64,000 nucleotides of DNA from Akkermansiaceae bacterium (GTDB lineage Bacteria; Verrucomicrobiota; Verrucomicrobiia; Verrucomicrobiales; Akkermansiaceae): the NCBI GenBank assembly GCA_013041925.1, contig JABDRB010000003.1, positions 186,001-250,000 on the forward strand, written 5' to 3'. The first letter of the stretch is position 1. Each line of letters opens with the position of its first letter. Shown here in pieces: positions 3,033 through 6,127 of this stretch. The translations under genes were made by a program, and so were the position numbers. The notes under the pieces are model-generated. The model saw nothing but the letters and a program-made list of their open reading frames with translations, had not been told where the DNA came from and did not search any database.

Positions 3033-3641
3033 CTATTCAACCCTCCTCCGCCCCTGCATGGCACGCATCAGAGTGAGTTCATCAGCGTGGTCGATCCCAC
3101 CGCCTGCCGAGATACCCTGTGCGATACGGGTGACGGAGCAATCGCGTGACGCGAGCAATTCCGCCAGATAATTTGATGTCGCCTCACCTTCCACATCGGC
3201 ACCTAACGCAAGAATCACTTCGACCTTAGGCGTCTTCTCCAGTCGACGCAGCAGCGGCGCAATGCGGAGATCATCAGGTGTGACATGGTCGAGTGGTGAA
3301 AGTTTTCCGCCAAGACAATGGTAAAACCCCTTGAAGGCACCGGACCTTTCCAGCGGCAACACATCGGTCGCTTGTTCGACCACACAGATTTCTTGGGCAT
3401 CACGACTGTCGTCACTGCATACCGGACACCCGTCGGCGGTCGCAAAAAAACCACATACGGAACAGGACGTCACTTGCTCCTTGGCACGGCAGAGCGACTC
3501 GGAGAGTTCAAGTGGGTTCGACTGTTTATGCTGTAGCAACCAGACCGCCACGCGCTCGGCGCTCCGGGGGCCGATACCAGGAAGCCGCTTCAACTCGGCA
3601 ATAAGTTCAACAACAGGTTGGGGGTAATCAGCTCTAGCCAT
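3033..3641 (-). CDS. recR: Recombination mediator RecR
   Basis: A 202-residue protein, the normal RecR length. It has the N-terminal helix-hairpin-helix (LKRLPGIGPRSAERVAVWLL), the C4 zinc finger (CSVCGFF..DGCPVC), a Toprim domain beginning ICVVE, the GAFKGFYHCLGGKLSPLDHV segment, and a C-terminal AQGISAGGGIDHADELTL run. RecR acts with RecO and RecF to load RecA at gaps. The ATG at 3641 is chosen because it starts the conserved domain; it overlaps the stop of the upstream membrane gene (ATGGCTAG). The only purine-rich site, AAGGAG, abuts the ATG with almost no spacing, so translation is probably coupled to the upstream gene. It is the last gene of a minus-strand operon with the ClpX-like gene. 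recO lies elsewhere, at 16139. Confidence 0.95.
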   Translation of the reverse strand: MARADYPQPVVELIAELKRLPGIGPRSAERVAVWLLQHKQSNPLELSESLCRAKEQVTSCSVCGFFATADGCPVCSDDSRDAQEICVVEQATDVLPLERSGAFKGFYHCLGGKLSPLDHVTPDDLRIAPLLRRLEKTPKVEVILALGADVEGEATSNYLAELLASRDCSVTRIAQGISAGGGIDHADELTLMRAMQGRRRVE

Positions 3642-4221
3642 CTCCTTGGTTTCTTTCTCTCTTTTTGGGTTGATACTTGGCATTCGGGTCTGGAACATCC
3701 ATGGCGATCTCAGCAACATCCGCCACCTCAGGTCGTGTCAGGGCATGTCTCCTCGGCGAAGAAACGTCATGTTGAAAACCTAAACCATCACACGGCATCA
3801 CGTGATGATTTACATACATCATGGTACAAAACCATGTCCAGAAAACAGCAATCAGCGGGATGATCGGCGAAAAATAAACATCCCATACGGCAAAGGTCGG
3901 AACCATCGCCAACACAATCACCACCATCGTCACCCCCACCACCATCCTCCGCCAGGTGCACGCAGAATCCAATACAGCAAAGGCCAAACCCCAGCAAAAA
4001 ATCGCCGCCATAACCACCAACACCGGCGCCGCCAGCACCGCCGAAATCGACCCGTGAAAAAGAGGATCCAACAGCACCTGCTTCAATTGCTCATCCCCCC
4101 GTGCCAGCCAGCCCAGCATCTGCATCGCCACAGCCAAGGCCAGGCCAACGCCGCCGAATAACAAGCCAGGGCCGCCCACCCTACCTACCGGCACCATGTG
4201 ATTTGGATGATGGAAACTCAT
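3634..4221 (-). CDS. Four-helix membrane protein of unknown function
   Basis: A 195-residue protein with four hydrophobic segments, roughly at residues 20-40 (LLFGGVGLALAVAMQML), 58-84 (AVLAAPVLVVMAAIFCWGL), 91-110 (VVGVTMVVIVLAMVPTF) and 115-138 (FSPIIPLIAVFWTWFCTMMY). A hydrophilic tail of about 55 residues follows, ending in a strongly basic cluster that would face the cytoplasm. I do not recognise a family. It sits between the ClpX-like gene (38-base gap) and recR (8-base overlap), so it is part of that operon, but nothing in it points to a role in proteolysis or recombination. A second possible start is the methionine at residue 9. Confidence 0.7.
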   Translation of the reverse strand: MSFHHPNHMVPVGRVGGPGLLFGGVGLALAVAMQMLGWLARGDEQLKQVLLDPLFHGSISAVLAAPVLVVMAAIFCWGLAFAVLDSACTWRRMVVGVTMVVIVLAMVPTFAVWDVYFSPIIPLIAVFWTWFCTMMYVNHHVMPCDGLGFQHDVSSPRRHALTRPEVADVAEIAMDVPDPNAKYQPKKRERNQGDG

Positions 4222-4259: not shown

Positions 4260-5915
4260 TCAGGCACCATCGCCCTTTGTTTGCTCCACGGCTTCGACAT
4301 CACCCTTCCGGGTGGCTGCCGCATCAGTATAAGACTGAACCACGGATTCACTCAAGAACTTGTCCGCATCTTCCACCGCATCGTCCCCCAGCTCGAATTC
4401 GCCTTGACCGGTATTTTTCTGAATCAGCTTCAATCCAAATTGGTAGTCTTTGAATCGCTGCTGGCAAATCTGCAAGACACTCCGCCCACCCTCTGCCGCC
4501 TCAGTGCCTAATCGACTCACCCCATCGTCCGAGATCTTCACTCGGATGGCGTGTTTCTCATAAAAATCACGACAGTAAAGGTCCGCCTCCTCGCGTGCTT
4601 TGGCAACATCCACACGCCGACCCAGTTCGCGATATTTATCAAGCACCTTGTCGTGTTGATCGATCAGGTCGGCATCGATGCTCAGTTCACTGACCGCGGT
4701 GCCGGGAAGTTCAAATTTAAAATCGCGCAGTAAACTCTCACACACCGTCATCAGGGCACGGGCACCCGTATTTTCCCTCTCTGCCTTTTCCGCAATCCTC
4801 TCGATAGCCGATAACTCAAACTTCGCTTGAATGCCGTAAGCGGCGAACTCACGCTCATACTGCCGTAGCAGGCTGCCCTCCGAGTTCTGCATGATGTTTA
4901 CAAAATCCTTCGCCTCCAACTTCTCACAAACCACACGCACGGGAAGCCGACCAATAAATTCAGCTTCAAATCCAAAATCAATAAAATCCTGCGTATTGAC
5001 CTGGCCAAACAATTCCGCATCGATCGGGTGCTCGGCGACATCCGCACCAAAACCAATCTGGCCGGAGCTCAACCGCTTTTTCACCATTTTTTCCAGTCCG
5101 GAGAATGCACCACTGACAATAAAGAGGATATGGCGTGTATTAATCGCGTCCTTCCCCGCACCCTTGCCACTCTGGAAATCCATCATCGCCATCATCTGGC
5201 TTTTCATATCATTCGGGTTGCGCGCCGATACCTCCGTCTCCTCCATCAGCTTCAGCAATGTCGTCTGCACACCACGACCACTCACATCACGCCCCATACT
5301 CTGTCCCCCACCGCTGGCGAGTTTATCCACTTCATCGATATAAATAATGCCATACTCGGCAAGATCCATATCCCCATCGGCTTTCTGCACCAACTCACGC
5401 ACGAGGTCGTCCACATCACCACCAACATACCCAGTTTCGGAAAACTTGGTAGCGTCCGCCTTGACAAAGGGTACACCAATCATCTCGGCAATGTGTTTTA
5501 CCAAATATGTTTTCCCCACTCCCGTCGGACCAACCACAATGACATTTTGTTTTTGATACTCGATTCCCTCTGGGATTTTCCCATGTTCCTGCTCGAGTCC
5601 ACGCATGTATTTAGCATGGTTGTAATGATCACACACCGCGATGGAGAGGGCTTTTTTAGCCTCGTCCTGACGGATCACAAAACGATCCAGATGCGCTTTG
5701 ATATCGCGCGGCTTATAATTAAAATCAAAAATCGCATCCGCTTGGTTGATTTCCAGTGGTTCCTCCATCGTTTCTTCCGCATCCCCCCCCTGATGCAAGG
5801 AATCAAAGCCAGGAAATGACATGGATGCGTCCACACCCATCTTCCCAAACATATCTTTGAGCATTTTCTGCAATTCATCGGCATCGGGTAAATCCTTGTC
5901 TTTTTTATCGCTCAT
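4260..5915 (-). CDS. ClpX-like AAA+ unfoldase without zinc domain, extended C-terminus
   Basis: A 551-residue protein against about 420 for ClpX. The AAA+ core is clear: Walker A GPTGVGKT, pore loop GYVG, Walker B IIYIDEVDKLA, an IGF loop (GQIGFGADV) as used by ClpX to dock on ClpP, the EFIGRLPV segment, and sensor II in NTGARALMTV. The N-terminus is short, acidic and has no cysteines, so the zinc-binding domain is missing. A second stretch near residues 460-500 (EGGRSVLQICQQRFKDYQF) resembles the sensor-II small domain again, so the small domain appears duplicated. It could be a second ClpX with altered substrate choice; no clpP is nearby. The start at 5915 (MSDKKDKD) skips 12 glycine-rich codons. 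Leads the operon to recR. Confidence 0.85.
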   Translation of the reverse strand: MSDKKDKDLPDADELQKMLKDMFGKMGVDASMSFPGFDSLHQGGDAEETMEEPLEINQADAIFDFNYKPRDIKAHLDRFVIRQDEAKKALSIAVCDHYNHAKYMRGLEQEHGKIPEGIEYQKQNVIVVGPTGVGKTYLVKHIAEMIGVPFVKADATKFSETGYVGGDVDDLVRELVQKADGDMDLAEYGIIYIDEVDKLASGGGQSMGRDVSGRGVQTTLLKLMEETEVSARNPNDMKSQMMAMMDFQSGKGAGKDAINTRHILFIVSGAFSGLEKMVKKRLSSGQIGFGADVAEHPIDAELFGQVNTQDFIDFGFEAEFIGRLPVRVVCEKLEAKDFVNIMQNSEGSLLRQYEREFAAYGIQAKFELSAIERIAEKAERENTGARALMTVCESLLRDFKFELPGTAVSELSIDADLIDQHDKVLDKYRELGRRVDVAKAREEADLYCRDFYEKHAIRVKISDDGVSRLGTEAAEGGRSVLQICQQRFKDYQFGLKLIQKNTGQGEFELGDDAVEDADKFLSESVVQSYTDAAATRKGDVEAVEQTKGDGA

Positions 5916-6127
5916 CGCGCGGACTATCCCCCAGCCTCCACCGCCACGCAACTGAAACTTACCCTCAAGCCTTCACCCACACCGAAAAATGACCAGTAAA
6001 CCTTGATCAATATCACCCACCCACCCACCCAATGACAGAAAAACCCACCCATCCATAGCGATTGCTGAAATTCATCATTGCACCGATCGCAATTTTACCG
6101 AAACTGATGCATCAGCATTTTCATCAC

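Follow-up and report, generated by a model that had tools for sequence, protein, structure and literature searches.

A ClpX paralogue of Verrucomicrobiota with a second small domain and a replaced RKH loop

A cell is commonly assumed to have a single ClpX, whose tag code is fixed. In the Akkermansiaceae genome studied here, a gene for a further ClpX-like protein raises the questions of what its additional C-terminal segment is and whether the protein reads the same substrates as ClpX. The gene lies in the window, the whole stretch of 64,000 nucleotides analysed. Its reading frame runs on the minus strand from an ATG at 5915 to a stop codon that ends at 4260 (4260..5915) and encodes an AAA+ unfoldase of 551 residues (Pfam AAA_2, E 3.8e-27), exactly where the first-pass annotation had placed it. 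An upstream TTG at 5951 gives a longer frame, to which the 563-residue numbering quoted below refers. Since the MSDKK start is common to the close relatives, we chose it over the TTG.

The protein stays below the cut-offs of both ClpX families, TIGR00382 (307.6 bits, cut-off 370.75) and NF003745 (341.5 bits, cut-off 359), and falls far short of that of the HslU family TIGR00390 (196.4 bits, cut-off 362.45); HslU or another AAA+ family was ruled out on these scores. ClpX structures are its best solved relatives (242 bits over residues 80‒436, 563-residue numbering), and its identity to the canonical ClpX of related genomes is 35‒41%. Twenty-six relatives of the protein itself were found at 91‒50% identity. 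The first-pass annotation had considered whether a canonical clpX might lie beside clpP elsewhere in the genome, and one does: the host genome (3.28 Mb in 33 contigs) encodes a canonical ClpX of 424 residues just after ClpP on contig 22. Two larger proteins of this genome have a ClpB-type small domain; one carries an LGF loop and the other does not, and by the loop alone, not by a family call, they would be named ClpC and ClpB, respectively. A mobile or plasmid origin of the gene was rejected. No plasmid matched the C-terminal segment, and whole-protein matches to plasmid and phage records, among the matches listed (the best 30 of 86 and 15 of 119 records), cover at most 68% of the length, approximately residues 53‒459 in the 563-residue numbering.

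The loops and motifs of 67 family members were compared with those of 24 canonical ClpX proteins of Verrucomicrobiota. The 67 are each distinct sequence of at least 400 bits in the loci taken; they include three partial sequences and the third copy of genome G161. The N-terminal region (residues 1‒64; 5724..5915, minus strand) contains no cysteines, and one conserved short helix (residues 12‒25) replaces the zinc domain; the C4 zinc motif occurs in none of the family members, as against 23 of the 24 canonical proteins, and the loss of the zinc domain claimed at first sight is real. In the large AAA+ domain (residues 65‒336; 4908..5723, minus strand), alignment to ClpX structures locates Walker A K135, Walker B D194/E195, pore-1 Y163/V164, and the arginine finger R323, all invariant or nearly so. 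The Walker motifs and the pore-1 tyrosine are present in 66 of 67 members, the remaining row being incomplete, and the arginine finger and sensor II in every member. Sensor II is R386 of the first small domain (residues 330‒420; 4656..4928, minus strand), for which PF10431 gives 21.3 bits in the protein scan (cut-off 21.9) and 23.9 bits in the genome search. The core of the ClpP-docking IGF loop (residues 287‒289; 5049..5057, minus strand) reads [ILMV]GF in 66 of 67 members, so that the reported retention of this loop holds across the family. From this motif, docking of the paralogue to ClpP is likely. Conservation of the tripeptide could reflect ancestry, yet it has lasted while the rest of the protein fell to about 50% identity.

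Behind the first small domain lies the segment that distinguishes the protein, at about residues 421‒535 (4311..4655, minus strand), which was studied by single-sequence, profile, model, and structure searches. Within the single protein, its local alignment to the first small domain scores 59, a value that none of 1000 shuffles reached (26.8 ± 4.8, maximum 48). Profile against profile, the score is 73.5 compared with 11.7 ± 2.1 and a maximum of 17.4 in 100 column shuffles, and a dedicated profile comparison of 27 relatives gives E 1.1e-12. Against the small-domain profile of canonical ClpX, the second segment scores 37.3; the higher score with its own family (73.5) points to a duplication within this paralogue lineage. 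Since full-length structure comparison rows cover only about residues 64‒430, a model of the extra domain alone was built and used for the search. The AlphaFold2 model of residues 416‒545 (65 rows) has a mean pLDDT of 79.8, and all 50 PDB entries listed for it are ClpX, HslU, ClpA, or ClpC, matched mostly in their small domains. The top entry aligns 82 residues with Z 8.0 and rmsd 2.3, although a Z of about 8 can be common and is not decisive by itself. Foldseek returned weak E-values for this model (best 0.16), and PF10431 detects the second segment in just one of 27 members (E 0.068). In the full-length model (pTM 0.59), the order of elements is the same in the first and second small domains. 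Taken with the model, the alignments firmly identify the second segment as homologous to the small domain and predict a small-domain fold. The first-pass annotation, which had read the protein as ClpX-like with a duplicated small domain and had left the matter to alignment of the two segments and structure prediction, was right on this point.

Not borne out is the arginine of the second copy, which it had included in the likeness of the second segment to the sensor-II small domain. This residue (R478, in GGRS) is Arg in 26 of the 65 relatives that have a residue there and Lys in 14, whereas R386 is Arg in 67 of 67, and a second sensor II was accordingly rejected. Residues invariant in the second segment of the 27-row set are F451, D490, L497, G503, L521, S522, and Y529. 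The extra domain would be non-catalytic, because it has neither a conserved sensor-II arginine nor a large domain of its own. Two proteins do without it: the family member of genome G203, which keeps the IGF and motor motifs, and the third copy of G161, which has neither the extra domain nor IGF. These indicate that the motor does not depend on the domain.

In the large domain, the differences from ClpX concern residues that read substrates. The loop that replaces the RKH loop, compared as residues 225‒265 (5121..5243, minus strand), has 41 residues against 30 in canonical ClpX, is rich in Gln and Met, and lacks RKH. The RKH motif is found in 24 of 24 canonical proteins and in none of the 67 family members, whose corresponding stretch has 39‒44 residues (26 in one partial row). 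At the position of E. coli Thr199, where all 24 canonical proteins have Thr, the family has Gly in 61, Ser in 3, and Thr in 2 of 66 members. According to one report, E. coli ClpX reads the ssrA tag through Y153, V154, T199, V202, R228, and H230, and human ClpX, with Leu at positions 199 and 230, does not degrade the ssrA tag (PMC7652416). Three of these six positions (T199, R228, and H230) are changed in the family, and Y153, V154, and V202 are kept in nearly all members. That substrate choice differs from ClpX had been deduced from the N-terminus; drawn from the missing zinc domain alone, the conclusion is weaker, and the replaced RKH loop together with the lost Thr199 position provides the far better argument. 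On these residues, an altered substrate code of the paralogue is well argued.

In a tree of 49 rows, a subset of about half of the rows picked by even steps, the family and canonical ClpX are split by a branch with 100/100 support. By its sequences, the family is a deep, separate, and old ClpX paralogue. Of 387 Verrucomicrobiota genomes, 103 contain a match to the C-terminal profile, with no match among the genus-3 genomes listed. In two of the 103 (G115 and G203), the best match falls on the first small domain; the second copy of G115 is very divergent, and G203 has none. The survey covered Verrucomicrobiota, and one scan of genome contigs gave close relatives only. All 103 matched genomes were checked for a canonical-type ClpX, which is also present in 97, counted as 6 (by identity, not by a curated cut-off), 17 of 19, and 74 of 78, where the 19 included G029 from outside the 103. 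The third ClpX-like protein of G161 (L164, 1814‒3088, minus strand) lies on the same side of the tree on a long branch. Other diverged ClpX-like ATPases, with frames of 419‒694 residues (L181‒L186), occur in G213, G221, G033, G037, and G032; none is matched by the profile of the second small domain. Besides the clpX-adjacent ClpP, a second and more diverged ClpP was seen in 8 of 20 genomes (L152‒L159).

The six matched genomes without a canonical ClpX are four drafts and two finished genomes of 0.9 Mb. The drafts (G091, G370, G398, and G416) have no ClpX over the cut-off, but clpP is absent from three of them as well, and the fourth has it within 350 bases of the point where a contig starts. 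Since this is the pattern that an assembly gap would give, we did not count them as losses of ClpX. A tmRNA was found in three of the four, and all three tags end in Ala-Ala. The finished genomes, G073 and G094, are tiny, of the symbiont kind, Xiphinematobacter-type, and of the same genus; as they represent one lineage, their loss of canonical ClpX is one event. Both keep ClpP, an LGF-bearing large Clp ATPase, one without the loop, and the ClpX paralogue with the extra domain, in a version in which RKH is absent and the Thr199 position remains Gly. Both also keep a full tmRNA (L175 and L176), whose tag of 20 residues ends in AVALLG and whose tag stretch is about 30 bases longer in the alignment. 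All 31 others among the 33 genomes read have a tag with an Ala-Ala ending (4 plus 27; no tmRNA was obtained for G370). The 31 include G213, for which a normal Ala-Ala tag is read in a frame other than that of the ARAGORN tag (L191), which did not end in AA. Genome G045 has two tmRNA genes with differing tags (L210 and L214). The tag change in G073 and G094 could be drift in a reduced genome, and the LGF-bearing, ClpC-type ATPase could be the partner of ClpP there.

The neighbourhood of the gene was examined in 26 loci, of which 24 were usable, the simple gene caller having missed the gene in two. In the window, a protein of 195 residues without a Pfam match (3634..4221, minus strand) is followed by recR (3033..3719, minus strand; TIGR00615, 213 bits), and the 195-residue protein stands between the ClpX-like gene and recR in the six Akkermansiaceae-type loci. 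On the same strand and within two genes downstream, recR is found in 9 of 24 loci, directly so in both Xiphinematobacter-type genomes. In other families, the ClpX-like gene adjoins rluD-like or HU-like genes, named by sight without a family call. The adjoining divergent gene of the window (6062‒8800, plus strand) encodes a Ser/Thr kinase with a Pro/Ala/Gln-rich repeat linker and a HEAT-repeat C-terminus. The ClpX-like gene is never adjacent to clpP in the 20 genomes compared. As judged from gene order, the commonest neighbours (recR and rluD-like genes) suggest no substrate, and no functional partner stands out.

We consider it probable that the paralogue docks to ClpP and unfolds a set of substrates of its own, other than ssrA-tagged ones, with the extra small domain serving as a non-catalytic accessory, where we infer the binding to ClpP and the accessory role; the claims on the motor and the fold are firm. 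It would act as a second ClpX-type unfoldase alongside canonical ClpX. The large domain and the first small domain would form a ring, presumably a hexamer as in ClpX, which would hydrolyse ATP and thread proteins through the pore-1 loops into ClpP, to which it would dock through the IGF loops. Because a longer Gln/Met-rich loop replaces RKH and the Thr199 position is usually Gly, the ssrA/Ala-Ala tag would not be read in the ClpX way. Other substrates may be picked via the replaced loop, the short N-terminal helix, and the C-terminal extra domain. This domain probably arose when the small domain of the family itself was duplicated in tandem, and it would most likely serve as a docking or regulatory module in place of the lost zinc domain.

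The same domain might instead be a structural brace, packed on the neighbouring subunit or on the ClpP-facing side, that stabilises the ring or its docking and does not choose substrates. We take this possibility seriously but lean against it. The extra domain directly follows the first small domain, its invariant residues look structural, and the third paralogue of G161 has lost the domain and IGF together; on the other hand, the G203 protein without the domain still has IGF and the motor motifs. That the paralogue is a ClpP-independent remodelling chaperone, with the IGF loop an inherited remnant, seems unlikely. The gene lies apart from clpP in every genome compared, and the G161 third copy shows that IGF can go, but the loop persists in 66 of 67 members despite the diverging sequence next to it, and the paralogue and ClpP are kept together where canonical ClpX is gone.

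A plain ClpX with an irrelevant C-terminal tail and the targets of ClpX would share the motor and the 35‒41% identity to the canonical ClpX of relatives. This is very improbable in view of the deep separate branch, the loss of RKH and Thr199, and a tail that is conserved over many families with a small-domain fold. Harder still to credit is that the second segment is a helical domain of other origin whose likeness to a small domain is accidental. The Foldseek and PF10431 values and the commonness of Z scores of about 8 would allow it, but the null-tested profile score, the shuffle-tested pairwise score, the element order of the first small domain, and the presence of only Clp-type AAA+ proteins among the 50 entries listed speak against it.

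Under the preferred reading of a ClpP-docking unfoldase with its own substrates, a wider picture can be offered as conjecture that may well prove wrong. Verrucomicrobiota would have two ClpXP machines, a canonical one for tmRNA-tagged (Ala-Ala) proteins and the paralogue, with its second small domain as a recruiting arm, for another important set of proteins. Xiphinematobacter would have kept the second alone, and its tag would then have been freed from Ala-Ala. In an old paralogue that retains the motor and the ClpP hook, with half of the tag-reading residues changed, nature has separated two functions, and the change of the tmRNA tag linked to it offers a direct way to test what maintains the Ala-Ala ending. 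To duplicate a small AAA+ domain without its large domain is an unusual means of equipping an AAA+ ring with an accessory; no description of a ClpX with a duplicated small domain was found in listings of the open-licence PMC literature.

Among known systems, ClpX (TIGR00382/NF003745) shares with the paralogue the AAA+ core, the pore-1 loop, the arginine finger, sensor II, and the IGF loop. The paralogue differs from it in having no zinc domain, a replaced RKH loop, mostly Gly at Thr199, a second small domain, and a gene that is not beside clpP. HslU is likewise the AAA+ ring of a peptidase, and its small domain resembles the duplicate, but the paralogue is below the HslU cut-off and has the IGF loop. 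Human mitochondrial ClpX also has altered ssrA-reading residues and, in the report cited above, does not degrade ssrA-tagged proteins (PMC7652416); its similarity to the paralogue is 38% or lower, as for other ClpX structures, and its PDB rows show no duplicated small domain. A further parallel by description is ClpX3 of Myxococcus xanthus (MXAN_2743), an isolated ClpX paralogue without the N-domain and the RKH motif that exists beside canonical ClpX and matters for growth at high temperature, with no second small domain mentioned in the portion of the description available (PMC11423568). ClpX3 thus gives a precedent for that part of the verrucomicrobial paralogue, the absence of the N-domain and RKH.
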